From positions 124,001 through 188,000 of the forward strand of contig JAJPHC010000060.1 of the NCBI GenBank assembly GCA_021325515.1: a stretch of DNA of 64,000 nt, given 5' to 3'. The number at the start of each line of letters is the position of its first letter. Position 1 is the stretch's first letter. Positions 1 through 63,968 of the stretch are shown in pieces. The translations under genes and the position numbers were made by a program. Below the pieces are notes generated by a model. The model saw only the letters and a program-made list of their open reading frames with translations. It made no database searches and was not told where the DNA came from. The stretch comes from Acidobacteriota bacterium. Its GTDB lineage: Bacteria > Acidobacteriota > Thermoanaerobaculia > Gp7-AA8.

Positions 1-412
1 CTTTCCTGCTGTCGGCCGCCAGCGCTTCGGCGTCGCGCTTTTTCTGCGCCTGGGCACGCGCGACCCACTCGCGCAATTGCGCGTAGTACTGCGTCGACTG
101 TACGACGCCCTGTTCCTCCGACATCTTGAACTCGCGCAGCGAGCCGTCGATGTCGCCGAGGTTGTAGCGGGCGATGCCGAGCCAGAAATGCGGAACGTAG
201 GTGATGATCTCGTTCTTCGCCCGCGCCGCACCGTTCTCGTTCGGCATCTCACTAACCGCGCGTTGCAGCTCATCGACACCGGTCTGATAGTTGTGCGCAC
301 GGACGGCAGCGACGCCGCGGTTGTAGGCATCCCACCATTTGTCGCTCGCCGCGAACAGCGAAACGACAGACAGGAGACAGCAGAGCGCAGGGATCAGCCG
401 GCGCCGGATCAT
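1..412 (-). CDS. Partial secreted TPR-like protein, C-terminus outside the window
   Basis: The frame opens with ATG at 412 and stays open to the window edge, so only about 137 N-terminal residues are visible. Residues 1-21 look like a signal peptide (MIRRRLIPALCC followed by a hydrophobic stretch ending LFA). The rest is helical, with WWDAYNRGV and FWLGIARYNLGDIDGSLREF resembling TPR helices, then an Ala/Lys/Glu-rich stretch. Its start overlaps the kinase stop as ATGA, so the two genes are probably translationally coupled. The function is unknown; a periplasmic TPR partner of the kinase is only inference. Confidence 0.7.
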   Translation of the reverse strand, partial: MIRRRLIPALCCLLSVVSLFAASDKWWDAYNRGVAAVRAHNYQTGVDELQRAVSEMPNENGAARAKNEIITYVPHFWLGIARYNLGDIDGSLREFKMSEEQGVVQSTQYYAQLREWVARAQAQKKRDAEALAADSRK

Positions 413-37750: not shown

Positions 37751-37879
37751 GGATGGGAGAATGGGACCTATAGGACCTATAGGACCTATAGGACCTATGG
37801 GACCTATAGGTGGAACGTGCAAACAGCAACGGTTCCGCCTATAGGTCCCATAGGTCCCATAGGTCCCATTCTCCCATCC
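37751..37879. repeat. GGACCTATA palindromic array, copy 1
   Basis: Outer arms GGATGGGAGAATGGGACC and GGTCCCATTCTCCCATCC are exact inverted repeats. Each side carries several 9-bp GGACCTATA/GGACCTATG units, with a short unpaired centre near 37817-37832. It fills a gap between convergent genes. A second copy lies at 40721-40847. Confidence 0.9.
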
Positions 37880-37885
37880 AAAAAA

Positions 37886-37915
37886 AAAAGACAGCACCCG
37901 CGGGTGCTGTCTTTT
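37886..37915. terminator. Rho-independent terminator of the cold-shock gene, bidirectional
   Basis: AAAAGACAGCACCCG and CGGGTGCTGTCTTTT form a perfect stem. On the minus strand it is followed by a run of ten T, 21 nt after the csp stop. Confidence 0.92.
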
Positions 37916-39699: not shown

Positions 39700-40721
39700 A
39701 CAGCAGCGAGTACGACCCGCGGGTGACCCCGTGGCGCATCGACGACGGCGAGTTCTACGATCTCGAAGACCGGCGTGCGCAGATCGAGTTTCTGCTCCGC
39801 TATGCCGTGCTCGCACCATCGGGCCACAACACGCAGCCGTGGTCGTTCCACATCACCGATGACGGCGTCGAGGTCAACGCCGACTTCCAGCGATGTCTCA
39901 GCGTCGTCGATCCCGACGATCGCGAGCTGTTGATGAGCATCGGAGCGGCCATCACGAATCTCCGCGTCGCGGCGGCGCGCTTCGGCTTTGAATCATCGGT
40001 CCTCTACCGCGCCGATGCCGATCCGCTCGCACTCGTCGCGCTGCGCGAGACGAGCAGTCCCGATGCGGATCTCATCCGCCTCTTCCCCGCCATCAAGATG
40101 CGGCACACGAACCGCCACGACTTCGACGGCCGCGCCCTCGAGCCGGAAGCCCTCGGGTCGCTCTGCGATTTCATCGACGACCATGCCCTGACGATTCACA
40201 TCGTGGCGCCGCACGAGAAGACGCAGGTCGCGGAGCTGATCGAGGAAGGCGACAAGCTGCAGATGGCCAACGGCAGCTTCCGCCGCGAGCTCGCCGACTG
40301 GGTGAGGCCCAGCGATAGCGACCAGCCCGATGGAATCAGCGGTGACGCGCTCGGCATTCCCGATCCCATCACCCCCGCCGCCCCCTGGCTCCTGCGCCGC
40401 TTCGACGTCGGCGCCATCCAGTCACGCCATGACCGCGAGCTCGCGGAGCACGCGCCGGCATTGCTGATCGTGCACGCCGACGACGATCGCGTATCGCTCC
40501 TGCGCGCCGGCGAGACCCTCGAGCACCTGCTCCTCCTGCTGACGAAGCTCAGCCTCCAGTACTCGTTCCTCAATCAGGCCATCGAGGTGCCCGTCCTCCG
40601 CGACCAGTTGCAGTTGATCGCCGGAACACTCCACCCTCCGCAGCTACTGTTGAGAGTGGGTTACGGCCGCCCGATCGAAAGGGCAACACCCCGGCGCGAG
40701 GTAGGTGCAGTGGTTAGTTAG
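39696..40721 (+). CDS. Acg family FMN-binding nitroreductase-like protein
   Basis: 341 residues. The layout matches the Acg family (M. tuberculosis Rv2032), divergent nitroreductases in the DosR dormancy regulon: LLRYAVLAPSGHNTQPWSFH near the N-terminus, a roughly duplicated fold with IKMRHTNRHDFDGRAL, and the C-terminal QYSFLNQAIEVPVLRDQLQL, LLRVGYGRP. The biological substrate is unknown; Acg may act as a flavin store. It is translationally coupled (ATGA) to the upstream radical SAM gene. The stop codon runs directly into the GGACCTATA palindrome. Confidence 0.88.
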   Translation: MNSSEYDPRVTPWRIDDGEFYDLEDRRAQIEFLLRYAVLAPSGHNTQPWSFHITDDGVEVNADFQRCLSVVDPDDRELLMSIGAAITNLRVAAARFGFESSVLYRADADPLALVALRETSSPDADLIRLFPAIKMRHTNRHDFDGRALEPEALGSLCDFIDDHALTIHIVAPHEKTQVAELIEEGDKLQMANGSFRRELADWVRPSDSDQPDGISGDALGIPDPITPAAPWLLRRFDVGAIQSRHDRELAEHAPALLIVHADDDRVSLLRAGETLEHLLLLLTKLSLQYSFLNQAIEVPVLRDQLQLIAGTLHPPQLLLRVGYGRPIERATPRREVGAVVS

Positions 40722-40847
40722 GGTGGATGGGACGGATGGGACCTATAGGACCTATGGGACCTATGGGTGGAACGGTGATCTGCCTATAGGTCCCATAGGT
40801 CCTATAGGTCCCATAGGTCCTATAGGTCCCATCCGTCCCATCCACCC
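40721..40847. repeat. GGACCTATA palindromic array, copy 2
   Basis: Outer arms GGGTGGATGGGACGGATGGG and CCCATCCGTCCCATCCACCC are exact inverted repeats, with 9-bp units inside. It exactly fills the gap between the convergent acg-like and pyruvate:ferredoxin oxidoreductase genes. Confidence 0.9.
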
Positions 40848-40848
40848 C

Positions 40849-44430
<3,582 letters not shown>

Positions 44431-44497
44431 GTTCAGCCTCCAGGAGTGAACATAGTCGTGTGACGAAACAGGCCCGAGGACCGGCAGCACAGGAGCG

Positions 44498-46402: not shown

Positions 46403-47284
46403 TCAGGAGACCGCGGCCTCGACCAGGACCGGATGTGAATCGACGGCGCCTTTGAGCCGCGAGAACCGAAGGAAGCGCGCCGGCGCCGCAGTCGTACTCG
46501 CGATCGTGAATGGACGATCGGCCATCACCAGCACTGCATCACCATCTCTCAAAAGATGATGCTCCGTCTCGAAGCTCACGCGAATGCTTCCTTCGACGAC
46601 ATACAACATCGCCGTCGATCCGGCCGGCGACGCCGGCGACGACATGCGCTGCCTTCCCTCGAGGCGGCAGTCGTCGAGCTCCACGCGCTCCGCCGGCTCG
46701 GTGTGCTGGAGGAGATGCTGATGGCTTCGATCGGACGCAGACGACGCAGATCGCGAAATGGCGATGACCGGCGATTCCACGATCTCCACGAAGTCGGCGA
46801 GCGACATGCCGAACGCCGCGGCGACGCGATCGACCACGGAGAGCGTCGGCTCGACGCTGTTCGTCTCCAGATAATGAAGCGTTCCCTTGCTGATACCGGA
46901 ATGCGCGACGAACTTGCGCCGGCTCCAGTTGTCGCGCTGGCGATACGCACGCGAGCGAGGTCCGATCGCGGCCGCAACCGCATCGGGATCGTCATAACAC
47001 CGAACGATCGAATCCTCGGGTGGCAGCATTCCGACCTGAATCGGCTGCTCGTCGAGCATGCGCGAGAGGCGAATGCCTACCGCGTTCGCCAGCCGCAGCA
47101 CGCTTGCGATTCCCGGATTCGAACCGCGCCGCAAAAGATGTTTGACGATGTTCTGGCTCAACCCGGCGCGCGCCGCAAGCGCAGCCAGCGACCAACCGTA
47201 ATGTTCTCGAATCGCTTCGAGATTTCGTGCGAACCGCTCCGATAGAACGTCCGCACGACTGATGATTTCCTGATTGGAGTTCAC
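46403..47284 (-). CDS. Tandem XRE HTH regulator with C-terminal cupin
   Basis: 293 residues. Two XRE-type HTH domains occur (WSLAALAARAGLSQNIVKHL near residue 30; NWSRRKFVAHSGISKGTLHY near 118), followed by a cupin-like ligand domain (YVVEGSIRVSFETEHHLLRDG). Such proteins respond to small molecules and repress metabolic or detoxification genes. The start is GTG at 47284 with GGAG 7 nt upstream. The target is unknown; it reads away from the fnr region and lies downstream of a small membrane protein gene on the same strand. Confidence 0.88.
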   Translation of the reverse strand: MNSNQEIISRADVLSERFARNLEAIREHYGWSLAALAARAGLSQNIVKHLLRRGSNPGIASVLRLANAVGIRLSRMLDEQPIQVGMLPPEDSIVRCYDDPDAVAAAIGPRSRAYRQRDNWSRRKFVAHSGISKGTLHYLETNSVEPTLSVVDRVAAAFGMSLADFVEIVESPVIAISRSASSASDRSHQHLLQHTEPAERVELDDCRLEGRQRMSSPASPAGSTAMLYVVEGSIRVSFETEHHLLRDGDAVLVMADRPFTIASTTAAPARFLRFSRLKGAVDSHPVLVEAAVS

Positions 47285-48087: not shown

Positions 48088-48948
48088 ATGTCTCGAACCC
48101 GATTCGCGTCTGTGGTGCTGCTCCTCGCTCTCTCCGTCCCGATGATGGCCAGCCACTCCTGGGGCGGATATCACTGGGCTCGCACCTCCAATCCTTTTAC
48201 TCTCAAGCTCGGTGACAACCTGACGAGTGCGGACTGGAAGGGTCATCTCTCGCAGACCAGCAGCGACTGGAATTCAGGCAGCTCGCCAGTCCGCACGACA
48301 GTCGTCGCCGGCACGTCCAACAAACGCTGCTCGATGGTCGCCGGCACGACTCAGGTGTGCAACAGCCGCTATGGCAACAACGGCTGGCTCGGCCTCGCAT
48401 CGATCAACCTGACCGGCGGCACGCACATCACGCAGGGCTCGGCGAAGATGAACGACACCTACTTCGACACCGCTACGTACAACAACAAAAACGAGCGGGA
48501 GCACGTGATGTGTCAGGAAGTCGCCCACACGTTCGGCCTGGACCACCAGAGCACCGACGGCTCATCACAGAATTCCTGCATGGACTACTTCTCGAACACA
48601 GGTGCGAACGCCGGCAGCACGCAGAGCACGAAGCCGAACTCGCACGATTTCCAGGAGCTCAGCTCGATCTACGCGCACCTCGACAGCTTCTCCACCCTCA
48701 GCCTGACGACGGGACTCGACCACATGGCCGAGTCACTCAGCATGCCCGTGCGCTGGATCGGCGATGATCTCACCGAAGTGTGGCAGCTCGGCACACCGAT
48801 CGAGTGGGATCACAAAGGCCGCGCGATCACATTCGTACTCGAGTTCGGATCGGATCACGATGGCGAGGAAGAAGCCATTCTCAGCCATGTCTTCTGGGCC
48901 GACGATGACCTGCTCGATCATCCGACGGTGCAGCACAGCAACGAATAA
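48088..48948 (+). CDS. Secreted zincin-like protein with QExxHxxGxxH motif
   Basis: 286 residues with a signal peptide (SVVLLLALSVPMMASHS). MCQEVAHTFGLDHQ aligns with the metzincin motif HExxHxxGxxH, but the first His is Gln; NSCMDYFS nearby resembles a Met-turn. The N-terminal half (GYHWARTSNPFTLKLGDNLT) looks like matrixin-type proteins that release or bind small host-like substrates. Whether zinc is bound with Gln as ligand, or activity is lost, is unclear. AAGGGGG lies 5 nt before the ATG, and a strong terminator follows. It is transcribed alone. Confidence 0.8.
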   Translation: MSRTRFASVVLLLALSVPMMASHSWGGYHWARTSNPFTLKLGDNLTSADWKGHLSQTSSDWNSGSSPVRTTVVAGTSNKRCSMVAGTTQVCNSRYGNNGWLGLASINLTGGTHITQGSAKMNDTYFDTATYNNKNEREHVMCQEVAHTFGLDHQSTDGSSQNSCMDYFSNTGANAGSTQSTKPNSHDFQELSSIYAHLDSFSTLSLTTGLDHMAESLSMPVRWIGDDLTEVWQLGTPIEWDHKGRAITFVLEFGSDHDGEEEAILSHVFWADDDLLDHPTVQHSNE

Positions 48949-48970
48949 GGTCCCGTTCTAAAAAACGATG

Positions 48971-48996
48971 AGAGCCCCGCCACAACGCGGGGCTCT
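48971..48996. terminator. Bidirectional Rho-independent terminator
   Basis: AGAGCCCCGC and GCGGGGCTCT form a 10-bp stem with a CACAAC loop, followed by TTTCATTTC on plus and by TCGTTTTTTAG on minus. It separates two convergent genes. Confidence 0.9.
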
Positions 48997-49003
48997 TTCA
49001 TTT

Positions 49004-49291
49004 CTATGGGATGTGAACTTCCGCGGCTCTTCCGTTGGCTCCGGGATGCACGACGACCCGCATCCCGCTCCGGAGCTCCTCCGGCTTCGCTTCATGACTC
49101 GTCCCGCTGCCGTGGTAGTAGCGCGTCGACGCGGAGAGTGGAACCGTCGTGTTTCCCGCATCGGTCTTCACGACGATCTCCGTCGCAGAAAACGCCGCAA
49201 TCGTGCCGGCTACATGCTTGTGCCCGGCATGCGCGAACACATTAATGGTGAGCAGAGCCGTGAGGGAGAGGAGCAGCAGTCGTCGTTTCAT
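49004..49291 (-). CDS. Small periplasmic DUF5666-like protein at the end of the copper operon
   Basis: 95 residues. The signal peptide ends NVFAHAGH. The body VAGTIAAFSATEIVVKTDAG, RYYHGSGTSHEAKPEELRSG and RVVVHPGANGRA has the look of small OB-like DUF5666 proteins. Two N-terminal His (HAGHKH) may bind metal. It overlaps the cytochrome c gene by 50 nt, so it belongs to the copper operon. Its exact role is unknown. Confidence 0.78.
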   Translation of the reverse strand: MKRRLLLLSLTALLTINVFAHAGHKHVAGTIAAFSATEIVVKTDAGNTTVPLSASTRYYHGSGTSHEAKPEELRSGMRVVVHPGANGRAAEVHIP

Positions 49292-49856
49292 CTCCCTGTA
49301 GAAACAACTCCTCGTCCTGTTCTTCTTTCCGCTCGGCGGGACTGACTGGATTCAGCGACTCCATTTCCTTCAGCTCATCCGGTGTGATCTGCGGCAGATG
49401 GCGGATGAAATGGACGAGTGTCCAGCTCGCATAGCCTGATGACGCGGTTCCATTTCCGAAACCCGGCATCCCGCTGAGCCGCACGCCATTCTCGATCGTC
49501 GCGAAAAGCTCTCCATCGGAAAGCGACTGCGTCTCGCTTCGCGCCAGGTCGGTCGCCCGAGGATAGAGGTGCGCGCCCATCTCCGTCTTACCTCTCCCAT
49601 CGTTGCCATGACAGTTCGCGCAGTGATCCGCGAAGTGCGCTCGCGCCTCGGCGAGCACTTCCGGCGTCAGCGCAACCGGATTCTTCATCCCGCGCAAATC
49701 CGAAGGAACAGCCAGATGCCGCATCGAGCGCGCGGCCACTGCCTCGATCGCCGTCGGCTCATCGTGCGCGCTGAATCCGTAGCGCAGCGTCCGCACCGCC
49801 ATGAACATTCCGATGAGCACGAGAATCAGGAGGACGCCGGCGATCGCCTTTCGCAT
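49242..49856 (-). CDS. Membrane-anchored c-type cytochrome
   Basis: 204 residues. An uncleaved N-terminal helix (IAGVLLILVLIGMFMAV) anchors a mono-haem domain with CANCHGNDGRG and the distal Met in VRLSGMPGFG. It probably carries electrons from the multicopper oxidase or another periplasmic donor. It lies 3 nt after the oxidase stop on the same strand. The C-terminal tail contains Glu/His runs (EEQDEELF, HGSAHH). Confidence 0.9.
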   Translation of the reverse strand: MRKAIAGVLLILVLIGMFMAVRTLRYGFSAHDEPTAIEAVAARSMRHLAVPSDLRGMKNPVALTPEVLAEARAHFADHCANCHGNDGRGKTEMGAHLYPRATDLARSETQSLSDGELFATIENGVRLSGMPGFGNGTASSGYASWTLVHFIRHLPQITPDELKEMESLNPVSPAERKEEQDEELFLQGDETTTAAPLPHGSAHH

Positions 49857-49859
49857 CGC

Positions 49860-51107
49860 TCACTCGACGCGCCGCGCGCGCGGCCCCTGTGAATACCAGC
49901 CCGGATCGCGCGTGTAGTCCATGTCATCGCGAATCTTCACGATCGTGAACATGCCGCCCATGTCGATCGGACCATACGGCCCCTCGCCGCCCCGCATCGT
50001 GATGCTGTTGCGCGGCATCGGCATCATGCCCTGCATCTCCGCCATCTCGCCCATGCCCGTTGGCCCCATGATCATCGTTCCCGGCGCCAGCGTATTGAGC
50101 CTCGCCTGCGTATTCGCGGCGTCGATGCCGAGGAGATTCGGGAGGCCGTGCCCCATCTGATTCATGACGTGGTGCGACTTGTGGCAGTGGAAGGCCCAGT
50201 CGCCGGGATTGTCGGCAACGAGCTCGATGTCTCGCGTCGATCCCACTGGCACATTGACGGTGTTCTCCGGAATCCAGGCCGATTCCTGGATCGGGCCGGC
50301 GTCGGTTCCCGTGACGTAGAACTTGTGTCCATGAATGTGAATCGGATGGGAATCCATCGTCAGGTTCGCGATGCGAATTCGGACGCGATCTCCTGTCCGC
50401 ACGAGCAGCGGCTCGGTTCCGGGGAACACGCGGCTGTTGAATGTGAAGACATTGAAGTCGAGCATCACCGTGGGATCAGGCGTCGATGCTCCCGGTTTGA
50501 TGAACCATTCATTGAGAAAGATCGCGAAATCACGATCGACGCGGCGCGTGCCCGCGTCGCGCGGATGAATGACGAAGAAGCCGTGCATCCCGAGCGCGAT
50601 CTGCACCATCTCATCGAAGTGCGGGTGGTACATCAGCGTCCCGTTCTGCTTGAGCGTGAACTCGTACGCGAACGTCTCGCCGGGTGCAATCTTTGGTTGG
50701 GTGAGCCCGCTGACGCCGTCCATTCCGTTCGGCAGGATCACTCCGTGCCAATGAATCGACGTCCCCTCGGGGAGATGATTCGTCACCAGAATTCGCACGC
50801 GATCGCCTTCGAATGCCTCGATCGTCGGCCCGGGCGTCATCCCGTTATAGCCCCAGCAATTCACCTGGAATCCATCGACGAACTCACGCTTCACCGGCTC
50901 GGCGGTCAGGTGAAACTCCTTGACGCCGCCCACCATGCGATATGGAAGCGTTGCTCCGTTCGGCGTGACGACGTTCGTGCGTCCTCCCGCGCGGCGCGCG
51001 TGGCGCAGCGCCGAGCGCGTTTCCTTCGCTTCGCCGCGCCGCGCAGCGAGGCCGGCGAGCGTCGCGCCGAACGATGAAAAGAGGACGTTGCGGCGCGTGA
51101 TGCCCAT
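49860..51107 (-). CDS. Periplasmic multicopper oxidase
   Basis: 415 residues. All four copper-binding segments are present: SIHWHGVILP, MYHPHFDE, HPIHIHGHKF and FHCHKSHHVMNQM. A possible Tat-type signal (MGITRRNVLF) starts the protein. A Met-rich stretch near the C-terminus (MIMGPTGMGEMAEMQGMMPM) resembles CueO/CopA oxidases that oxidise Cu(I). Its ATG overlaps the outer-membrane factor stop by one base (TGATG). Expected role: lowering periplasmic Cu(I) within the copper island. Confidence 0.94.
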   Translation of the reverse strand: MGITRRNVLFSSFGATLAGLAARRGEAKETRSALRHARRAGGRTNVVTPNGATLPYRMVGGVKEFHLTAEPVKREFVDGFQVNCWGYNGMTPGPTIEAFEGDRVRILVTNHLPEGTSIHWHGVILPNGMDGVSGLTQPKIAPGETFAYEFTLKQNGTLMYHPHFDEMVQIALGMHGFFVIHPRDAGTRRVDRDFAIFLNEWFIKPGASTPDPTVMLDFNVFTFNSRVFPGTEPLLVRTGDRVRIRIANLTMDSHPIHIHGHKFYVTGTDAGPIQESAWIPENTVNVPVGSTRDIELVADNPGDWAFHCHKSHHVMNQMGHGLPNLLGIDAANTQARLNTLAPGTMIMGPTGMGEMAEMQGMMPMPRNSITMRGGEGPYGPIDMGGMFTIVKIRDDMDYTRDPGWYSQGPRARRVE

Positions 51108-52441
51108 CAGCGGTCTCCGATCCCATGCAGCGCGCGATCGAGCCCGATTCGCGCGCGCCAGTAGTCGCGCTGCGCTTCGATGAGGCCGCGCCGCGCTTCG
51201 GCTTCACTCTGCTTCGACTGCAGAAGCTGGAACGTCCCGACGAGCATCGCGTTGTGCTCGAGCGTCGTGAGGTGCACGATCCGCTCGCGACGGGGGACGA
51301 CGACGTTCCGGTAGTACTCGACACGCGCGCGCGCCTCGATGAGCGATGCCCGCGCCGCGCGCAGGGATGAGGACGACTCCGCGAGCAGCGCGTTCAACAT
51401 GTGCTTCGATCGCAGCCACTCCGCTTCGACGCGATTGCGCGCCGCAGTTCCCCGGTTGAACAGCGGCAGTGGAAACTCGAGTCCCGGTCCCCACGTGCGC
51501 GGCCCTTCGGCATCGCGCTGATAGTGAATGTCGCCAACGAGCTCGCCGAGTGCGGCGAGGCGGGCCAGCGGGAGCTGGCGGCCGGCGGCGTCGATCTCGC
51601 GGCGCACGATGGCGATGTCGAGCCGCTGCGCGGCTGCAAGCTCTTCGAGTTGCGATGGTTCCGGTTCACTCGCCGGCAGCGGAGGAAAATCCTGCGGCAA
51701 TTGCCACTCGATCGAGTTGTCGCGCAGCCCCATGTTCCTCACGAGTGCCTCGCGCGCGACCAGCAGATCGCGCTCCGCTCGCGCCAGCCCGAGCTTCGCC
51801 TGCTCGTAGCTCGCCTGCTCGTTCTCGAGATCGAGATCGGTGATGTTGCCGGCGTCGTGCTGCCGGACCGCAAGCTCGGCGGCGGCCTTGGCCGATTCGA
51901 GCGCCACCCGGTTCTGTGCAACCTGCTGCGAGGCAGCGAGCAGATCGCAGTAACTCTCGCGCACTTCGGCGGCGATACGCAGAACTGCGGCGGTGATCCG
52001 CATGCTTGCCGCGTCGAATCCGATCCGCGCGATCGCGCGGCGGCTGCCGAGGCGCAGCAGATCGACCAGCGATTGTGCGAGTCTCAATTCGTACGCGTGG
52101 AAGGGATCGGCAGGAATGCGGTACTCGACTTCGAGCAGAGGATTCGGAATCGTGCTCTCCTGCAGCAGTGCGACGCGCGCGATGCCGAGCTCCGCCAGCG
52201 TCACCTGCAGCCGCGGACTGTTGCGCATCGCGATGGCGACCGCTTTCTCCGCGGTCAACTCGCCGTCACGCAGCAGCGCGAGAGACTGCGGATCGTCAGA
52301 CGCGTTGGGCTGCGCCGCCCACACGACGCGCTCCACTCCGCGCGCCGCGAGTGCCTGTTCGACCTCCGCTACTCCCGCATCGCGGGGAACCGAGGCACAT
52401 GCAGTCAGGAGTGCCGTGGCGACCACTGCTGCGAACTTCAT
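51107..52441 (-). CDS. TolC/CusC-type outer membrane lipoprotein
   Basis: 444 residues. A lipoprotein signal (FAAVVATALLTAC) precedes the two helical repeats of outer-membrane efflux proteins (RNSPRLQVTLAELGIARVAL; RQHDAGNITDLDLENEQASY). It gives an exit duct across the outer membrane. It starts immediately after the Met/His-rich gene stop and overlaps the multicopper oxidase start, placing it firmly in the copper operon. No RND or ABC pump gene is in this arm; the divergent arm has its own TolC-type gene with CusBA. Confidence 0.92.
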   Translation of the reverse strand: MKFAAVVATALLTACASVPRDAGVAEVEQALAARGVERVVWAAQPNASDDPQSLALLRDGELTAEKAVAIAMRNSPRLQVTLAELGIARVALLQESTIPNPLLEVEYRIPADPFHAYELRLAQSLVDLLRLGSRRAIARIGFDAASMRITAAVLRIAAEVRESYCDLLAASQQVAQNRVALESAKAAAELAVRQHDAGNITDLDLENEQASYEQAKLGLARAERDLLVAREALVRNMGLRDNSIEWQLPQDFPPLPASEPEPSQLEELAAAQRLDIAIVRREIDAAGRQLPLARLAALGELVGDIHYQRDAEGPRTWGPGLEFPLPLFNRGTAARNRVEAEWLRSKHMLNALLAESSSSLRAARASLIEARARVEYYRNVVVPRRERIVHLTTLEHNAMLVGTFQLLQSKQSEAEARRGLIEAQRDYWRARIGLDRALHGIGDR

Positions 52442-52972
52442 TCAGCGATCCTTCGTTTTCGGCGCGTCGAATTCATCGGGATGGAGCGTCACATCGGGAT
52501 GAACGCGAGCCATCGCGCCCGATGACCGCGGCGCCTCGAGATTCATGGTGACATCGGCGTTCGCCGCGGAATGTTCGTGCTGCATGCCGGCCATCGTGCC
52601 GTGATGCATCTGCGAGTGATCCATCTGCGAATGATCCATCCCGGGCATCGCTGAATGGTCCATCTTCGAATGATCCATTCCCGCCATCTGCGAATGGTCC
52701 ATCTTCGAATGATCCATCCCCGCCATCTGCGAATGATCCATCTTCGAATGATCCATGCTCATCCCCGGCATCGCTTCATGAGCCGTCGCGGGAGGAGCAG
52801 GCTCCGGCGCGTGATGTTCCTGAGCTCCTCCGCCATGATCTCCCGCAGTGACCGGAGTCCCCTTCTTCACCGCCTCGGCATATGCGGCCGCGCTTTTCGA
52901 GGCGACCGATTGCCTGCCGCCGCAGGCGAGCAGCATCGCGATCGCGCTGCAGAGCGCGAGCCGCCGGCTCAC
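52442..52972 (-). CDS. Met/His/Asp-rich lipoprotein, probable copper-binding
   Basis: 176 residues. The lipoprotein signal is [17 protein letters not shown]. The central region has at least three 13-residue repeats of the type [13 protein letters not shown], giving dense Met and His ligands suited to Cu(I)/Cu(II); the DNA repeat is visible near 52620-52760. The C-terminus is less repetitive. It lies between the ATPase and TolC genes with ATGA overlap to the ATPase. It is likely a periplasmic copper sponge or chaperone; binding is inferred from composition. Confidence 0.88.
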
Positions 52973-55233
52973 AGCTTCACTCCGCGCAAACGCAACGCAT
53001 TCGTGATGACCGACACCGAGCTGAAGCTCATCGCGGCCGCAGCAATCATCGGGCTGAGCAACACACCGAAGAATGGATAGAGCGCGCCGGCAGCGATCGG
53101 CACACCGAGCGCGTTGTAAACGAACGCGAAGAAGAGATTCTGCCGGATGTTCTTCATCGTCGCCTCACTGAGGTGGCGCGCCCGCGAGATCGCGCGGAGA
53201 TCGCCTTTCACCAGTGTCACGCCGGCGCTCTCCATTGCGACGTCCGTTCCCGTTCCCATCGCGATGCCGACATCCGCCTGCGCGAGCGCCGGCGCATCGT
53301 TGATTCCATCGCCGGCCATCGCGACGACGCGCTTCTGCTTCTGCAGCCGCTGCACCACCTCCGCTTTCGATGCCGGCAGCACATCCGCGATCACTTCATC
53401 GATTCCGAGCTTCTTCGCCACGGCCTTCGCCGCAGTCTCACTGTCGCCGGTCACCATCACCACGCGAAGACCGGACGCATGCAGTTCGCGGATCGCATCC
53501 GCCGTCGTCTCTTTCACTGGATCCGAGACAGTCAGAAGTCCCGCGCACTCGCGGCCAATCGCAACGAACATCACGGTCTGGCCGTCGGCGCGCAGCCGCT
53601 CGGCCCAGTCATTCAATGCACTCGCATCGATCCTGAGCTCGTCGAGCATCGCGTGGTTGCCGACGATGACATCTTTCCCATCGACATCGCCGCGCACTCC
53701 TTTGCCCGTGATCGACGTGAAGTTCGTCGCCTTGCTCACCTGGATGCCGCGCGCTTCCGCGCCGGCGATGATCGCCGAGGCCAGCGGGTGCTCGCTCGCC
53801 CGTTCCACGGCAGCCGCGAGGCGAAGCAGCTCGTTGCCGTCCACTCCCTCCTTCGCGACGAGCGACGAGAACACAGGCTTCCCCACCGTCAGCGTGCCGG
53901 TCTTGTCGACGACGAGCGTATCCACCTTGCGCAAACGCTCGATGGCGTCCGCGTTGCGGAAGAGCACACCCGCGGTCGCCCCTTTGCCCGCGGCCACCAT
54001 GATCGACATCGGAGTCGCGAGTCCCAGCGCGCAGGGGCAGGCGATGATCAACACGGCGACGGCGTTCACGATCGCGTACACGAACCGCGGCTCCGGCCCG
54101 TACACCATCCACAGTCCGAACGTCGCGAGCGACGCGAGAATCACGGCGGGCACGAAGAACGCCGACACTCGATCGGCGAGCTTCTGAATCGGCGCGCGGC
54201 TCCGCTGAGCCTGCGACACCATCTGGACGATCTGCGCGAGCAGCGTCTCCCGGCCGACTCGCTCTGCGCGCATCAGCACGGAGCCGGTCGTATTGACCGT
54301 CGCTCCGATCAGCCGGTCGCCCTTCTGCTTTTCGACCGGCAGCGGCTCGCCGGTCACCATCGATTCGTCGACGCTCGTCGTCCCCTCCAGCACGACGCCA
54401 TCAACCGGAATCTTTTCACCCGGTCTCACGCGCAGCGTGTCGCCGGCCTTCACTTCTTCGAGCGGCACATCGCGCTCGCCGCCTTTCGCGTCGACACGAC
54501 GTGCGGTCTTCGGCGCGAGGCCGAGCAGTGCACGAATCGCAGCTCCGGTCCGCTTGCGCGCCCGCAGCTCGAGGACCTGCCCGAGGAGGACGAGCGTGAC
54601 GATGGCGGCGGCGGCTTCGTAGTAGACATCGCCGCGCACCGCCGGCGGAAAGATCCCCGGTACCACGGTGGCCACGATGCTGTAGACGAACGCGACGAAG
54701 ACGCCGAGTCCGATCAGCGTGAACATGTTGAGATTGCGCGTGACGATGGAATCCTTCGCGCGAACGAAGAACGGCCAGCCACCCCACAACACGACGGGCG
54801 CCGCGAGCGCGAGCTCGATCCACGGACTGATGCCGTGCATGAACATCGCGATTCCCACGAGTGGGATCGTGAGCAGAGCGCTGATCCAGAAGCGGATCGA
54901 CATGCTCTTCAACTCAGGATCGGCTTCCTCTTCGAGCGTGATCGTCTCCGGCTCGAGCGCCATGCCGCACTTCGGACACGAGCCCGGCCCGTTCTGCCGC
55001 ACCTCGGGATGCATCGGGCAGACGTAGACCGCGCCGGGCATCGTCTTCGCCGGCCGCGCCGCCGCCGGCTCCGGCGTTGCCGGCTCCTTCTTCATGAACG
55101 ACTTCGGATCTTTGTCGAACCGGACTTTGCAGTGCGGGTTGCAGAAATAGATCGTCTGCCCCTCGTACACCGACGAGCCTGCTGCTCGTGCCGGATCGAC
55201 TGTCATGCCGCAAACGGGATCGATGTGTGTCAT
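52969..55233 (-). CDS. copA: Copper-transporting P1B-type ATPase with YHS and heavy-metal-binding domains
   Basis: 754 residues. The N-terminal YHS domain ([24 protein letters not shown]) and a heavy-metal-binding domain ([20 protein letters not shown]) precede the ATPase core. CPC in [12 protein letters not shown], phosphorylation site DKTGTLT and hinge [16 protein letters not shown] are complete. Such pumps move Cu(I) from cytoplasm to periplasm. It is the first gene of the minus-strand copper operon, and its start faces the cus-type operon across about 120 nt. No CsoR/CueR regulator is next to it. Confidence 0.95.
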
Positions 55234-55783: not shown

Positions 55784-57052
55784 ATGTTTCGAACTCTCGG
55801 CGCCTGCATGGCAGGCGCACTGCTGCTGACCACGAGCGCATTCGCGATCGACTGGAATGATCCGCATTCCGTCGTTGGCGCTGCGCTCGCCAACGCTCCG
55901 TCACTCCGCGAAATCGACGCGAAACTCGCTGCCGCGCGCGCGCTCCAGCAGGAAGCGGGAACGTTGCCGAACCCGATGCTGATGGCCGGTGTGCAGAACC
56001 AGCAGATCGATCTCAAGCGCGATCCGGCGATGACGATGTACATGGCGGGAGCGTCCCAGACATTCATCCGCCGCGATCGCCGCGAGGCGATGCAGCGTGT
56101 CGCCGCGCTCGAGGTCGAGAGCCTGGAGCAGGAAGCGGAGTCACGGCGCGCAGCGATCACGCGGGATGTGCTCGTCGCGTACGACGAGGCGGCCACCGCC
56201 GAGAATCAGATCGCAGCGAACGAGGATCTCGCGAAGCTCGCTGCTCTCACGGCTGACGCCGCGAAGAGCCGGTATGAAGCCGGCGCCGCGCCGCAATCCG
56301 ACATCATTCGCGCGAAGCTCGAAGCGAGCAATGTGCGCCATCAGGTGCTGATGCAGCGAGGCGTCCGCGATACCGCGCTCGCACAGCTCCGCGCTCTGCT
56401 GAGCCTCGCGCCCTCCGAGAGCATCCCGTCGTTCGCTCTTCGTCACGAGATGGAGCACCACCAACGCGGTGCTGATCCTCTGCTCAACCCGGCGACGCCA
56501 GCGACAGCCGCGCTCGAGTCCGAGCTCGGCCGCGCGGAGGAGGAGATCCGCCTCGCCAGACTCGCAACGAAGCCGGACATCAGCGTCGAAGCTTCGTACG
56601 GATTCAGGCCGGGGATGACGGATGTCTTCAGCATCGCCGGACGAATCGAGCTGCCGATCCGCCGGAAGACGGCGATCGAGCCGCGGATTGCGGCGGCGAT
56701 CGCACGCCGCGACGAAGTGCGCGCGCAGATCGACACGCTGCGCCAGCAGCTCGTTTCCGCGTTCGGCGAGGCACTCGCCTCGCGCAATGAAGCGATCGAG
56801 CAGATCAACCTGCACGTCGAGCAGCTCGTGCCCGAGGCGAAGCTGGGATTCGAGTCGGCACTGGCCTCGTATCAGGCCGGAAAGACCACATTCGATTCCG
56901 TCCTCGGCGCGCTGCAGACGTACCGCCTGCTCAACGTCGACTACTACGACTTCGTGCGCCAGCTCCTCATCGCCGACGCGGAGATCGACGCCCTGCAGCA
57001 TGGCGCGACGGGGCGAAGCGGCGCGATCCAGATGATGGGAGGTGCACGATGA
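55784..57052 (+). CDS. cusC: TolC/CusC-type outer membrane factor of the Cus pump
   Basis: 422 residues with a signal peptide (ACMAGALLLTTSAFA) and the repeated helical hairpins of outer membrane efflux proteins (AAARALQQEAGTLPNPMLMA; AAPQSDIIRAKLEASNVRHQ; VPEAKLGFESALASYQAG). It is the outer channel of the CusCBA-type tripartite copper efflux pump. It overlaps the cusB start as ATGA, so translation is coupled. Family assignment is firm; Cus specificity follows from its neighbours. Confidence 0.92.
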   Translation: MFRTLGACMAGALLLTTSAFAIDWNDPHSVVGAALANAPSLREIDAKLAAARALQQEAGTLPNPMLMAGVQNQQIDLKRDPAMTMYMAGASQTFIRRDRREAMQRVAALEVESLEQEAESRRAAITRDVLVAYDEAATAENQIAANEDLAKLAALTADAAKSRYEAGAAPQSDIIRAKLEASNVRHQVLMQRGVRDTALAQLRALLSLAPSESIPSFALRHEMEHHQRGADPLLNPATPATAALESELGRAEEEIRLARLATKPDISVEASYGFRPGMTDVFSIAGRIELPIRRKTAIEPRIAAAIARRDEVRAQIDTLRQQLVSAFGEALASRNEAIEQINLHVEQLVPEAKLGFESALASYQAGKTTFDSVLGALQTYRLLNVDYYDFVRQLLIADAEIDALQHGATGRSGAIQMMGGAR

Positions 57053-58287
57053 AACGCTGGGCTCCGTGGATCGTTGCAGCAGTGTTCGCGATCGCATTCG
57101 TCGTCGCCCTCGCCGGCAGGCGCGGCGGCAACTCGAACGAGATCGACGGCGTCACGCAGGATGGATCCGGGCGGCGCGTCGTCGCATGGATCGACCCGAT
57201 GTACTCCATGGGTCCGCCGCACGAGTACAAGTCGAATCATCCCGGCGTCGCGCCGGACTGCAACATGAAGCTGGTGCCGCAATACGCGGCGGAGAGCACG
57301 AGCAGCGGCGACGCGGGCGCGGTTTCGATTCCGTCGCAGCAGCAACAGTTGATCGGCGTCAAGCTCGCCACCGCCGGGCTGCGCGACCTCACACATACGA
57401 TTCGCACCACGGGACGCGTTGCCGCCGACGAACGGCGCACGGCTCAGGTGCGCACGAAGTTCGAAGGTTTCATCGACACGCTTTACGTCAACGTCACCGG
57501 GCAGCCCGTTCGCCGCGGCGAACCACTCGCCGCGATCTACAGCCCCGACCTTCTGGCGACGCAGAACGAATTGATCCTCGCCGAGCGCAATCACTCCGAG
57601 CTCGGCCGCACGCTCGCCGGCGCGGCGCGCGCGCGCCTGCGCCTCTGGGACATGAGCGGCGCCGACATCGATCGCGTCGCAGCAACGGGCAAGCCCATCC
57701 GCGATGTCGTCCTGCGATCGCCGGTCTCCGGCATCGTCACGACGAAGAACGCGGTAGCAGGTGCGCGCGTCACTCCGGCAGACATGCTGTACGAGATCAC
57801 GGATCTCTCGCACGTGTGGGTGCTCGCGGATATCTACGAATCGGAACTGGCCGCGATTCATACCGGCACTCCCGCGCAGGTCACGGCCGGAGGACAAACG
57901 CTCTCGGGCCGCGTCACGTTCATCGGTCCCGTCATCGCGGCCGCCACGCGGACCGCGACCGTACGCATCGAGCTGGATCATGCAGATGGTCTGTTGAAGC
58001 CCGACATGTTTGCAGAGGTACTTCTCGAGCAGCAGCAGGGAAAGTCGGTCGCCGTTCCCGACAGCGCGGTGATGAACACGGGATCCCGCATGATCGTCTT
58101 CGTCGCGCGCGACAACGGGACGTTCGAGGCGCGCGAAGTCACGGCGGGTGCGAAGGCTGACGGCTACTACGCGATCCGCTCCGGCGTCGCGGCGGGCGAG
58201 CGTGTCGTGGTCGACGCGAACTTCCTCGTCGATTCCGAGTCGCGTCTCAAGTCCGCGCTCTCGCGCATGAACGGGAGCGGCCAATGA
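57049..58287 (+). CDS. cusB: Periplasmic adaptor of copper RND efflux pump, with heavy-metal-binding domain
   Basis: 412 residues. An N-terminal membrane anchor precedes a heavy-metal-binding segment (WIDPMYSMGPPHEYKSNHPG, then GVAPDCNMKLVP). The membrane-fusion barrel and lipoyl domains follow (EGFIDTLYVNVTGQPVRRGE; VLRSPVSGIVTTKNAVAGAR; GGQTLSGRVTFIGPVI). It links CusC with CusA and may hand copper to the pump. Both junctions, to cusC and cusA, are ATGA overlaps. Confidence 0.93.
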   Translation: MKRWAPWIVAAVFAIAFVVALAGRRGGNSNEIDGVTQDGSGRRVVAWIDPMYSMGPPHEYKSNHPGVAPDCNMKLVPQYAAESTSSGDAGAVSIPSQQQQLIGVKLATAGLRDLTHTIRTTGRVAADERRTAQVRTKFEGFIDTLYVNVTGQPVRRGEPLAAIYSPDLLATQNELILAERNHSELGRTLAGAARARLRLWDMSGADIDRVAATGKPIRDVVLRSPVSGIVTTKNAVAGARVTPADMLYEITDLSHVWVLADIYESELAAIHTGTPAQVTAGGQTLSGRVTFIGPVIAAATRTATVRIELDHADGLLKPDMFAEVLLEQQQGKSVAVPDSAVMNTGSRMIVFVARDNGTFEAREVTAGAKADGYYAIRSGVAAGERVVVDANFLVDSESRLKSALSRMNGSGQ

Positions 58288-61200
58288 TCGACCGGATCAT
58301 CCGCTGGTGCGCGATCAATCGCGGCATCGTCGTGATCGTCGTCGGCGCACTCGTCGCGATCGGCGTCTGGAGCATCCAACACATCGCCGTCGACGCCCTC
58401 CCCGATCTCTCCGACACGCAGGTGATCGTCTTCTCGAAATGGGACCGCAGTCCCGACATCGTCGAAGATCAGGTCACGTATCCCATCACGACCGCCCTGC
58501 TCGGCGCGCCGCATGTGAAAGCGATCCGCGGCTTTTCCGACTTCGGCTACTCGTACGTCTACGTGATCTTCGACGAAGGGACCGACATCTATTGGGCGCG
58601 CAGCCGCGTGCTCGAATATCTGTCCAAGGTTCAATCGCAGTTGCCGCAGGGAGTCGAGACTTCGCTCGGCCCCGACGCGACCGGAGTCGGCTGGGTCTTT
58701 CAGTACGCGCTCGTGGATACGACGGGCCAGCACTCACTCGCGGATCTGCGCACGCTGCAGGACTGGCACATTCGCTACGAGCTGCAGTCCGTGCCGGGCG
58801 TCGCCGAAGTGGCCAGCGTCGGCGGCTTCGTGCGGCAGTACCAGATCACCGTCGATCCGCAGAAGCTCGCGTCGTACGGCATCCCGCTGATGCAGGTGAG
58901 CGACGCGGTGCGCAAGTCGAACAACGACGCCGGCGGGCGGCTGATCGAGTGGAGCGGCGCGGAGTACATGGTCCGCGCACACGGATACGTGCGCAGCAAA
59001 GCGGATCTCGAACAGATCGCGCTGAAGGCCGCGAACGGGACTCCCGTGCGCCTCGGCGACATCGCCGAGGTCCAGCTCGGGCCGGAGCTGCGGCGCGGCA
59101 TTGCGGAGCTCGACGGCAAGGGAGAAGTTGCCGGCGCCGTCGTCGTCATGCGCCATGGCGAGAACGCGATGAACGTGATCAACGGCGTGAAACAGCGGCT
59201 CGCGCAGATCGAACGATCACTGCCGAAGGGCGTGAAGATCGTCACGACGTATGACCGCTCGGAGCTGATCGCCGAATCGATTCACACCCTCAAACACGAG
59301 CTGCTGATCGAGATGCTGATCGTCTCGCTCGTCATCCTCATCTTCCTCTGGCACATCCCCAGCGCGCTGATTCCGATCTTCACGCTGCCGGCCGCGGTGA
59401 TTCTCGCGTTCATCCCGATGCGCCTCTTCGGCATCAACGCAAACATCATGTCTCTGGGCGGCATCGCGGTCGCGATCGGCGCGCTGGTCGATGCCGCGGT
59501 GGTCGTCGTCGAGAACGCCCACAAGAAACTCGAGGCGTGGGAGAGCGGCGGCCGGCAGGGCGACTACAAAGAGATTCTCATCACCGCCATTCAGGAAGTC
59601 GGACGCCCCAGCTTCTATTCGCTGCTGGTCATCGCTCTTTCGTTCATGCCGATCTTTGCGCTCGAAGCGCAGGAGGGAAAGCTCTTCAAGCCTCTCGCCT
59701 TCACCAAGAATCTCTCGATGGCGCTCGCGGCGCTGCTGGCCATCACGCTCGATCCAGCGCTGCGGCTGATGTTCACGAAGCTGAAGCGCTACGACTTCAG
59801 ACCGCGCTGGCTCGCGGCGGGGGCGAACGCGGTCCTCGTCGGCCGCATGGTTCCCGAGGAACGGCATCCGATCTCGCGAGTGCTCTTCAGAATCTACGGC
59901 CCGCCGATCCACTGGGTGCTGCGCCACGCACGCCTGGTGATCGTGCTGGCGGTCATCGTCGTCGCGGCGACGATCCCGGTCTATTTCCGCGTCGGCCACG
60001 AGTTCATGCCGCCGCTCAACGAAGGGGTCATTCTCTACATGCCGACGACGCTGCCCGGCATCTCCGTCACGGAAGCGAGCGCACTGCTGCAGAAGCAGGA
60101 TGAGCTGTTGCGGCAGGTTCCCGAGGTGGAGCGCGTGTTCGGCAAAGCGGGCCGCGCCGAAACCTCCACCGATCCCGCGCCGTTCTCGATGATGGAGACC
60201 ACCGTCGTCCTGAAACCGGAATCGGAGTGGCGGCACAAGAAGCGCTGGTATTCCTCCTGGATGCCGGACTTGCTGCAGCCGCTGGTTAGACCGTTATGGT
60301 CCGATCGACTGTCATGGGAGGATCTGACCAACGATCTCGATCGCCGGCTGCAGATTCCCGGACAGACGAACGCCTGGACGATGCCCATCCGCAACCGCAT
60401 CGACATGCTGACGACGGGCATCCGCACGCCGGTCGGCATCAAGGTCTTCGGCTCCGACCTCAAGCAGATCGAGAACATCGGCAAGCAGCTCGAACAGATC
60501 GTGGGCCAGGTGCCGGGCGTGCGCAGCGTCTACGGTGAGCGCGTTTCAGGCGGCTACTTCGTCGACTTCGACATCAACCGCGCCGCGATCGCGCGTTACG
60601 GATTGACCGTCGACGACGTGCAGCAGACGATCATGACCGCCATCGGCGGCGAGAACGTTTCCACGACGATCGAAGGCCGCGAGCGCTACCCCATCAACAT
60701 CCGCTATCCGCGCGAGCTGCGCGACGAGCTCGACAAGCTGGGCCGCGTGCTCGTCGCCACGCCGTCAGGCCCGCAGATTCCGCTCGCACAGCTTGCGTCG
60801 CTGCGCATCGCAGAAGGGCCGGCGATGATCCGCGACGAGAACGGACGTCTCGCCGGCTACGTCTACATCGACGTCGACACCGCGCGCCGCGACCTCGGCA
60901 GCTTCGTCGACGACGCAAAGCAGGCCGTCGCCTCTCACCTGCGTCTGCAGCCTGGCTATACGCTGCAGTGGAGCGGTCAGTACGAAGCCATGCAGCGCGT
61001 GCGCGATCGGATGATGTTCGTCGTCCCGCTCACGCTCTTCGTCGTCGCCTTCCTCATCTACCTCAACACACGCTCGATGCCGCGGACGCTGCTCGTGCTG
61101 CTCGCCGTGCCGTTCTCCGCCGTCGGCGCCGTCTGGTTGATGTGGGCACTCGGCTACAACGTCTCCATCGGTGTCTGGGTCGGCCTCATCGCGCTCCTCG

Positions 61201-61553
61201 GTCTCGATGCGGAGACCGGCATCTTCATGCTGCTCTATCTCGACCTCGCGTACGATCAGATGAAGCCGCGCAACCAGGACGAACTGCGCGAGGCGATCTA
61301 CCACGGCGCGGTGAAACGAGTGCGGCCGAAGGTGATGACCGTCGCCTGCGCATTCTTCGGCCTCGTCCCGATCATGTGGTCGGCGGGCGCGGGCGCCGAT
61401 GTGATGAAGCGCATCGCCGCGCCGATGATCGGCGGCCTTTTCACCTCGTTCCTCATGGAGCTGCTCGTCTATCCGGCGGTGTATCTGTTGTGGCGGAAGC
61501 GCGAGTTGCCGGATACAGCAGAGCCGGCGCTCGCTAAGACTGCTGGACAATGA
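58284..61553 (+). CDS. cusA: Heavy-metal RND efflux pump, CusA family
   Basis: 1089 residues, full length for HME-RND proteins. Features include the N-terminal helix with INRGIVVIVVGALVAIGV, the periplasmic porter domain, helix 4 acidic residues in GGIAVAIGALVDAAVVVVEN, and the conserved ALDAETG-like segment ALLGLDAETGIFMLLYLD. The copper-binding Met residues of CusA are expected in the porter cleft; I have not placed them all. It drives Cu(I) (or Ag(I)) out through CusC using the proton gradient. It overlaps cusB by ATGA. Confidence 0.95.
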   Translation: MIDRIIRWCAINRGIVVIVVGALVAIGVWSIQHIAVDALPDLSDTQVIVFSKWDRSPDIVEDQVTYPITTALLGAPHVKAIRGFSDFGYSYVYVIFDEGTDIYWARSRVLEYLSKVQSQLPQGVETSLGPDATGVGWVFQYALVDTTGQHSLADLRTLQDWHIRYELQSVPGVAEVASVGGFVRQYQITVDPQKLASYGIPLMQVSDAVRKSNNDAGGRLIEWSGAEYMVRAHGYVRSKADLEQIALKAANGTPVRLGDIAEVQLGPELRRGIAELDGKGEVAGAVVVMRHGENAMNVINGVKQRLAQIERSLPKGVKIVTTYDRSELIAESIHTLKHELLIEMLIVSLVILIFLWHIPSALIPIFTLPAAVILAFIPMRLFGINANIMSLGGIAVAIGALVDAAVVVVENAHKKLEAWESGGRQGDYKEILITAIQEVGRPSFYSLLVIALSFMPIFALEAQEGKLFKPLAFTKNLSMALAALLAITLDPALRLMFTKLKRYDFRPRWLAAGANAVLVGRMVPEERHPISRVLFRIYGPPIHWVLRHARLVIVLAVIVVAATIPVYFRVGHEFMPPLNEGVILYMPTTLPGISVTEASALLQKQDELLRQVPEVERVFGKAGRAETSTDPAPFSMMETTVVLKPESEWRHKKRWYSSWMPDLLQPLVRPLWSDRLSWEDLTNDLDRRLQIPGQTNAWTMPIRNRIDMLTTGIRTPVGIKVFGSDLKQIENIGKQLEQIVGQVPGVRSVYGERVSGGYFVDFDINRAAIARYGLTVDDVQQTIMTAIGGENVSTTIEGRERYPINIRYPRELRDELDKLGRVLVATPSGPQIPLAQLASLRIAEGPAMIRDENGRLAGYVYIDVDTARRDLGSFVDDAKQAVASHLRLQPGYTLQWSGQYEAMQRVRDRMMFVVPLTLFVVAFLIYLNTRSMPRTLLVLLAVPFSAVGAVWLMWALGYNVSIGVWVGLIALLGLDAETGIFMLLYLDLAYDQMKPRNQDELREAIYHGAVKRVRPKVMTVACAFFGLVPIMWSAGAGADVMKRIAAPMIGGLFTSFLMELLVYPAVYLLWRKRELPDTAEPALAKTAGQ

Positions 61554-63104: not shown

Positions 63105-63968
63105 ATGCGACTCGACGATCAACGGCGAAGCTCCAATGTCGAAGATGAGCGCGGCAGCGGCGGAGGCGGAGGCGGTTTCGGCCTGCCGGTCATCGGCGGC
63201 GGCATCGGGACGCTCGTGATTCTCATCATCGCGGCCCTGTTCGGGATCAATCCGCGCGCGCTGCTGCAGCAGCAGCCGGCGCAGCAACAGGCGCAGCGGC
63301 GCGCACCGGCCCAACCGGGAGCTGCACCCGCCGATCCGCAGGCGGACTTCGTCGCTGCGGTTCTCGGCGACACGGAAGACGTCTGGCACGCCTACTTCAA
63401 GGAGCACTTCGGAAAGGACTACGAGGAGCCGCACCTCGTGCTGTTCAGCGGAGCGACGCAGTCCGGCTGCGGCTTCGCACAATCCGCGACCGGCCCCTTC
63501 TACTGTCCTGCCGACGAGAAGGTTTACATCGATCTCGAGTTCTATCGTGAGCTCAAGGAGCGCTTTCAGGCGCCGGGCGATTTCGCGCAGGCCTATGTCA
63601 TCGCGCACGAAGTCGGCCATCACATTCAAAACCTCCTCGGCACATCGGAAAAGGTTCACGCGATGGAAGAGCGCGCGTCGCAGCGGCAGGCCAATGCGCT
63701 TTCCGTGAGGCTCGAGCTCCAGGCCGACTGCTACGCAGGCGTCTGGGCCAACCACGCGCAGAAGATGAAGAACATCCTCGAGCCGGGCGATGTCGAGGAA
63801 GCGCTGAGCGCGGCCAGCGCGATCGGCGACGATCATCTGCAGATGCAGTCGCGAGGCTACGTCACGCCCGACTCATTCACGCACGGCAGCTCCACACAGC
63901 GCGTGAGCTGGTTCAAGCGCGGATTCGAAGGCGGCCAGCTGGAGAACTGCGACACGTTCTCGCGCTAG
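63105..63968 (+). CDS. YpfJ-type membrane zinc metallopeptidase
   Basis: 287 residues. A Gly-rich stretch and a membrane helix (GTLVILIIAALFGINPRALL) are followed by the neutral zinc metallopeptidase domain: SGCGFAQSATGPFYCP, the zinc motif IAHEVGHHIQ, and the third-ligand segment ELQADCYAGVWANH. Family members resemble YpfJ; their physiological substrates are unknown. The start MRLDDQRRSSNVED is typical of the family. A 35-nt gap separates it from the DUF1304 gene. Confidence 0.93.
   Translation: MRLDDQRRSSNVEDERGSGGGGGGFGLPVIGGGIGTLVILIIAALFGINPRALLQQQPAQQQAQRRAPAQPGAAPADPQADFVAAVLGDTEDVWHAYFKEHFGKDYEEPHLVLFSGATQSGCGFAQSATGPFYCPADEKVYIDLEFYRELKERFQAPGDFAQAYVIAHEVGHHIQNLLGTSEKVHAMEERASQRQANALSVRLELQADCYAGVWANHAQKMKNILEPGDVEEALSAASAIGDDHLQMQSRGYVTPDSFTHGSSTQRVSWFKRGFEGGQLENCDTFSR

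Follow-up and report, generated by a model that had tools for sequence, protein, structure and literature searches.

The stretch of 64,000 nucleotides of Acidobacteriota DNA analysed here (the window) encodes a 286-residue protein that is probably a secreted metallopeptidase with a metzincin fold, from a bacterial family in which Gln appears to be fixed where the first metal-binding His would stand. A zinc site made of three His is the textbook mark of metzincins, and a Gln-fixed family divided from HExxH relatives by one branch would be a natural experiment on metal change in a peptidase. The sequence, its conservation, the His/Gln split on a tree, the predicted fold and the neighbouring genes are what we show; secretion, metal ligation, catalysis, the identity of the metal and the substrate we infer. 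The features of the gene and its neighbours are located in Table 1.

Table 1. Positions (window numbering) of the gene, its parts and the neighbouring copper genes
Feature	Coordinates	Strand	Basis or remark
Regulator, two HTH stretches and cupin	46403..47284	-	
QExxHxxGxxH metzincin-fold protein, 286 aa, ATG start	48088..48948	+	Boundaries are exactly those of the open reading frame; Sec-type signal peptide by eye
Putative signal peptide, residues 1-21	48088..48150	+	From sequence by eye
Predicted metzincin-fold domain, residues 22-198	48151..48681	+	AlphaFold2 model; VIA-align ranges 22..197 and 34..198
Putative metal-site motif C142-Q143-E144-V-A-H147-T-F-G150-L-D-H153	48511..48546	+	Sequence, alignment
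Met-turn C164-M165-D166-Y167, Tyr at M+2	48577..48588	+	Sequence, alignment
Small C-terminal part, three predicted strands, residues 231-273, less conserved	48778..48906	+	Alignment, AlphaFold2
Terminator-like hairpin separating the gene from the convergent copper genes	48970..48997	both	
Small His-containing protein, signal-like N-terminus	49004..49291	-	No family match
Cytochrome c	49242..49856	-	
Multicopper oxidase	49860..51107	-	Pfam; best NCBIfam copper_res_A 186 bits, under cut-off 479
Outer membrane efflux protein (OEP)	51107..52441	-	
Met/His/Asp-rich protein with repeats	52442..52972	-	No family match
Copper-translocating P-type ATPase	52969..55233	-	TIGR01511 597 bits, cut-off 397
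Three genes: OEP, efflux adaptor, CusA/CzcA pump	55784..61553	+	

An earlier note, made from the letters of this DNA, had called the protein metzincin-like, with a motif matching HExxHxxGxxH except for Q at position 1 and with CMDY at a Met-turn distance. Both readings hold: Q143-E144-V-A-H147-T-F-G150-L-D-H153 is present, with the Gln143 codon CAG at 48514-48516, and C164-M165-D166-Y167 starts 11 residues past H153. The note's remark that the rest looks secreted agrees with the signal-like N-terminus, as judged by eye. The sequence GAAGGGGG lies five bases upstream of the ATG. When the residues ahead of H23 were tallied across homologues, they were mostly N, S, T or D, and from this family-wide A-[N/S/T/D]-H pattern the mature protein is expected to start at S22-H23-S-W. 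Directly past the expected cleavage point, H23-S-W-G-G-Y-H29-W30-A-R (residues 22-32, window 48151-48183) is near-invariant. A mature X-His N-terminus could bind Cu(II) by itself, or could dock in the way the N-terminus of active MMPs does. The dN/dS ratio is about 0.14 against a paralogue from the same genome and 0.27 against locus L001, with dS near saturation at about 1; both values point to purifying selection on the gene. The hairpin beyond its end is weak evidence of termination because 1.4 such sites are expected in shuffles, and two were found.

Relatives were sought in 84,980 species, one genome each, by means of six peptide patterns that all avoid QExxH; one of them (QNSCMDYF) covers the Met-turn. 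This gave 111 candidate stretches and 104 relatives, of which the best 80 were kept. An alignment of 81 sequences was built from the window protein, its two paralogues and 78 loci, leaving out L024 and L077 (broken frame). C81, C91, C142, Q143, E144, H147, G150, H153 and C164 are invariant in all 81, and M165, the Met of the Met-turn, a feature of the metzincin clan, and Y167 are each found in 80. Since C142, Q143, E144, H147, G150, H153 and C164 never vary, the motif is no chance pattern. The distinct homologues with a readable motif number 113 (this tally required a Cys before the motif and expected the Glu, and omits four fragments from L077, L024 and L004 whose motif cannot be read); 108 are Q-E-H-H, four are H-E-H-H and one, L140, is degenerate. 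What separates a Gln codon from a His codon is the third base alone. The 109 Gln codons are 96 CAG and 13 CAA, so that this base shifts between A and G, and C or T at that base, giving His, is confined to the four distant sequences. The Glu is kept in 112 of the 113.

The earlier note had proposed following the Gln through homologues, and had taken close homologues with His as a sign of a strain-specific mutation. Gln is present in all 81 aligned and in 109 of the 113 distinct sequences; no close homologue among these has His, the four His sequences being distant (31-149 bits against the family profile, where most Gln sequences exceed 300). Branches as distant as L094, L105 and L127 still carry Gln, as do two Deinococcus plasmid genes of 27% and 36% identity. 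Nothing was found in favour of a strain-specific mutation or sequencing error, a vanishingly improbable explanation that is ruled out by the Gln in all 81 sequences, both paralogues included. On this alignment the Gln is a hallmark of the family and not a strain trait.

A second explanation is that the proteins are pseudoenzymes, with a metal-free site and a fold reused for binding. The first His is absent, and L140 (- strand, genome G1146; CQYMGWSSGLDY) has lost the Glu and both His and retains the Cys and Gln; L140 is thus apparently a pseudoenzyme, and such decay does occur in the wider family. However, L140 is one sequence in 113, and none of the 81 aligned sequences varies at the other catalytic residues; we consider this explanation for the family very improbable.

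The His-type relatives are L125, L129 and L130, all from genome G438, and L128. L125 (CHELGHSIGLGH) scores 149 bits over positions 8-221 of the family profile and also passes Pfam M10, and through it the family is homologous to HExxH metzincins. For a first tree the 116 core sequences were reduced by similarity to 35, including very distant outgroups; it needed three His/Gln changes and joined long branches. A second, maximum likelihood tree of 30 sequences, from which L095, L099, L103, L128 and L140 were removed and in which the Gln/His column was masked, has a single branch (98/95) that parts 27 Gln from three His sequences, and therefore one change suffices. We trust this second tree more than the first, although its three His rows come from one genome. 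Because of that, a change from His to Gln, and not the reverse, is suggested by Gln at the first ligand being, to our knowledge, rare among metzincins. A search for more His-type relatives that reached three genomes gave no new one, and L125, L129, L130 and L128 are the best entry to the putative ancestral state.

The window protein is predicted to have a metzincin fold, as the earlier note's comparison with metzincins would lead one to expect. The AlphaFold2 model made from the 81-row alignment has a mean pLDDT of 80.6 and a pTM of 0.66, with pLDDT mostly above 90 at residues 41-190 and below 50 at 202-230. In Foldseek it is matched best by proteases of the serralysin type and by matrix metalloproteinases, with E values starting at 3.5e-5. 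VIA-align gave karilysin at Z 13.8 (141 residues, rmsd 2.6 Å), MMP-9 at 13.5 and snapalysin at 13.2 (132 residues), which are in effect tied, and the 50 matches listed span Z 12.4-13.8; the karilysin alignment starts at residue 22, the expected mature start. The clan motif HExxHxxGxxH/D is departed from at the first His and followed at the remaining positions, and because that His is Gln in all 81 sequences we say metzincin-fold and not canonical metzincin.

In Pfam the window protein has one match, Reprolysin_2 at E 1.2, far under the cut-off; NCBIfam gave no match, PHROGs gave three weak ones (best E 0.0098, a repressor family), and in PDB sequence searches the protein matched nothing, while the family profile had a single, spurious match (RMD5, E 0.36). 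Across the 81 members at E <= 1 the most widely shared Pfam matches, though weak, are of metzincin type: Reprolysin_2 in 52, DUF4953 'Met-zincin' in 42, Reprolysin_5 in 36 and M10 in 30. The window protein itself has no match to M10 (PF00413) and so does not reach the Pfam cut-off, which the divergent L125 (His) and L094 (Gln) narrowly pass. The Cys-switch pro-domain of M10 is absent, the predicted fold beginning directly past the signal peptide; the third-ligand Asp of M7 is replaced by H153 in all 81. M54 gave weak matches in three of eight proteins scanned. M11 (PF05548) was absent for the window protein, for eight further proteins and from the 25 listed of 34 families matched across the 81 members.

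The titles of the kept loci name Acidobacteria, Proteobacteria, Actinobacteria, Chloroflexi, several candidate phyla and others. Two clear paralogues occur in the genome of the window, with identities of 83% and 45% across the matched parts (blastp: 76% and 38%), and there is one further, doubtful match (E 0.03). A profile search of the same phylum hit 19 of 396 genomes at E <= 0.001, ten strongly (E <= 6e-27, own genome included) and nine weakly, the latter with HExxH proteins. At E <= 1e-6 it hit 10 of 296, 3 of 299 and 9 of 286 genomes in the phyla of Streptomyces, Pseudogulbenkiania and Woesebacteria, respectively, counting the centre genome of each. Because the family is thus broad yet patchy, its distribution fits horizontal spread. 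A phage origin was considered and rejected: 50,697 phage records gave no match; two viral contigs carry a relative, and three plasmid records match, their members being annotated 'hypothetical protein'. L107 and L108, IMG/VR contigs with a viral label that may be host DNA, encode a Q-type protein whose N-terminus resembles a lipobox (LLSSC).

The gene converges on a set of copper-efflux genes that begins 55 bases past its end. The run from the small His-containing protein to the ATPase is divergent from the OEP-adaptor-pump genes. The pump scores 1147 bits with TIGR00914 (cut-off 701) and the adaptor 120 bits with TIGR01730 (cut-off 95) and 190 bits with the CusB model, under its cut-off of 390; oxidase and adaptor are thus both under the cut-offs of copper-specific models. 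The Met/His/Asp-rich protein is a probable copper binder. The ATPase has no other match in its own genome at E <= 1e-40. A second island in that genome (L164, 1119-11793 and 16128-19901) holds diverged copies of the copper genes of the window (oxidase 84% identical, outer membrane protein 63%, cytochrome 61%) and adds a membrane-type multicopper oxidase and two Q-type paralogues. One of these paralogues likewise faces the end of the copper genes, and between the two sits a gene that by eye resembles the HTH-cupin regulator. At L164 11850-12950 (-) an ordinary HExxH protein (HELGHTLGFHH) adjoins the third Q-type paralogue.

Elsewhere in the window, by eye, an open reading frame at 63105-63968 (+) with HEVGHH appears to encode another zinc metallopeptidase, distinct from the Gln protein and retaining the usual His. 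A long frame at 40849-44490 (-), which we take to resemble pyruvate:ferredoxin oxidoreductase, has an internal run of GQAWAP-type repeats, and short simple repeats that translate to GPIGPI or GTYGTY occur in two separate places (about 37780-37890 and 40720-40840).

Since the window locus prompted the copper idea, it was excluded from the counts in other genomes. At distances up to 20 kb, at least 7 of 52 loci have a P-type heavy-metal ATPase where 2.1 are expected (P 0.004), and 3 of 52 have a copper oxidase where 0.24 are expected (P 0.0016), both in the best-ranked 50 of 79 genomes. Within flanks of about 4 kb, 4 of 79 loci (79 genomes) have such an ATPase against 0.75 expected (P 0.007), not counting short ATPase matches at L024 (E 1e-13) and L073 (E 1e-8); some loci enter both ATPase tests, which are thus not independent. 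Expectations were taken from whole-genome densities with rounded genome sizes, and are upper bounds because contig ends were ignored and many contigs are short; nearby gene pairs were chosen by eye, the genomes are not independent, and short contigs make a missing neighbour weak evidence. In Albitalea an oxidase and an outer membrane protein lie within 7 kb of the locus, and in G026, on a 5.8 kb contig, an oxidase is 1.8 kb and a weakly similar outer membrane protein 3.3 kb away; L006 has an ATPase, a cytochrome and a small protein as neighbours, and L008, L031 and L050 each have an ATPase. Clustering of the neighbouring open reading frames gave no widely common partner that would mark a conserved operon: P-type ATPases occur at five loci, tied with histidine-kinase-like and glycine-rich proteins, and the larger clusters resemble other frames of the gene itself. 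The association with copper is therefore partial, most loci having neither an ATPase nor an oxidase nearby.

These neighbourhoods bear on the tentative idea that the family, or the clade of the window protein, is a copper-dependent or copper-activated envelope peptidase of the copper-stress response. The algal protein VMP3, with QEXXH, is described in passages of PMC7717551 as favouring copper; the three clear copies in the genome of the window adjoin copper-efflux genes, and the oxidase close to two of these copies shares 84% identity with that of the window; and heavy-metal ATPases and copper oxidases exceed expectation in the 50 other genomes. Against it, 45 of the 52 loci have no heavy-metal ATPase listed within 20 kb, Massilia accounts for two of the positive genomes, zinc and cadmium pumps are included in the ATPase test, and metal islands travel horizontally and may carry passengers. 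We hold as doubtful the wider proposal of an undescribed, horizontally spread group of copper-using metallopeptidases, in which a single His to Gln change would have switched zinc to copper and made an envelope protease that acts under copper stress.

How the site might work can be sketched from the conserved residues. The metal would be held by the side-chain oxygen of Gln143 with His147 and His153; Glu144 would be the general base acting on the metal-bound water, Met165 would lie underneath the metal site, and peptides would be cleaved outside the cytoplasm. Tyr167, at M+2, would occupy the place that a Tyr has in astacins and serralysins. A C142-C164 disulfide may link the active-site helix to the Met-turn. 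The Gln would weaken zinc binding and broaden or shift the choice of metal; the analogy with VMP3 makes Cu(II) the leading alternative.

The same residues could serve in a metal binder that hydrolyses nothing, an envelope copper buffer or sensor or a metal-dependent binding surface. One His ligand lost, the small size, the copper neighbours and the extra conserved His and Trp in H23-S-W-G-G-Y-H29-W30 all fit such a role, and yet the general-base Glu, needless for binding alone, stands in all 81 and in 112 of 113 sequences; we regard a binder as unlikely. The earlier note had offered two readings, zinc held with Gln or water and a non-catalytic binder. Because no aligned sequence of the 81 departs from the Glu, the two His or the two pairs of Cys, a working Q-H-H metallopeptidase is likelier than a dead binder. 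Two points count against an active peptidase: the Tyr at M+2 (read in 100 of the 113 distinct homologues) is absent from divergent Gln branches, and strict conservation could equally serve non-hydrolytic metal binding. Given the active-site parts that are kept and the precedents of LRA-12/GOB-18 and VMP3, we favour, by analogy, a Q-H-H site that is active as a peptidase, with copper a serious candidate metal.

The QEXXH motif in Volvox and the common fold are known already; in the open-licence literature we found no description of this bacterial Gln family and no assay, metal analysis or solved structure of a member, and the motif peptide, sought there in five variants, occurs in none of those papers. 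In snapalysin (M7, Streptomyces), a small secreted bacterial metzincin and tied in Z with the matrixins, the first ligand is His and the third Asp, whereas the window protein has Gln and His there. The matrixins (M10, including bacterial karilysin) are the best structural match of its model, from which it differs by the Gln, by a Cys preceding both this Gln and the Met of the Met-turn, and by leaving no room for a pro-domain. Archaemetzincin (M54) also has Cys close to the metal motif and Met-turn, but these, as presented in parts of PMC3427221, come after the third His, and those of the window protein stand before the Gln and before the Met. A Gln as first ligand in an active enzyme is exemplified by the beta-lactamases LRA-12 and GOB-18, which according to excerpts of PMC5531557 work with a Gln-His-His zinc site; their fold and reaction are unrelated and the likeness is one of analogy only.

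VMP3 of Volvox carteri is a eukaryotic extracellular-matrix protein and the present family is bacterial. We take VMP3 to belong to peptidase family M11. As M11 was not listed for the members scanned, the Gln in the two groups is likely to reflect convergence. In VMP3 QEXXHXXGXXH replaces HEXXHXXGXXH and copper is favoured in catalysis, as stated in sections of PMC7717551, where the source is Heitzer and Hallmann 2002 (also a reference title in PMC5704591); by this quoted motif the extracellular VMP3 matches the window protein and offers a precedent both for a Gln ligand and for a preference for copper. The same sections report a model of MMP8 H197Q in which the computed Cu(II) coordination is more stable. 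With the bacterial family, the report of a copper-preferring algal QEXXH protease becomes testable in small bacterial proteins.
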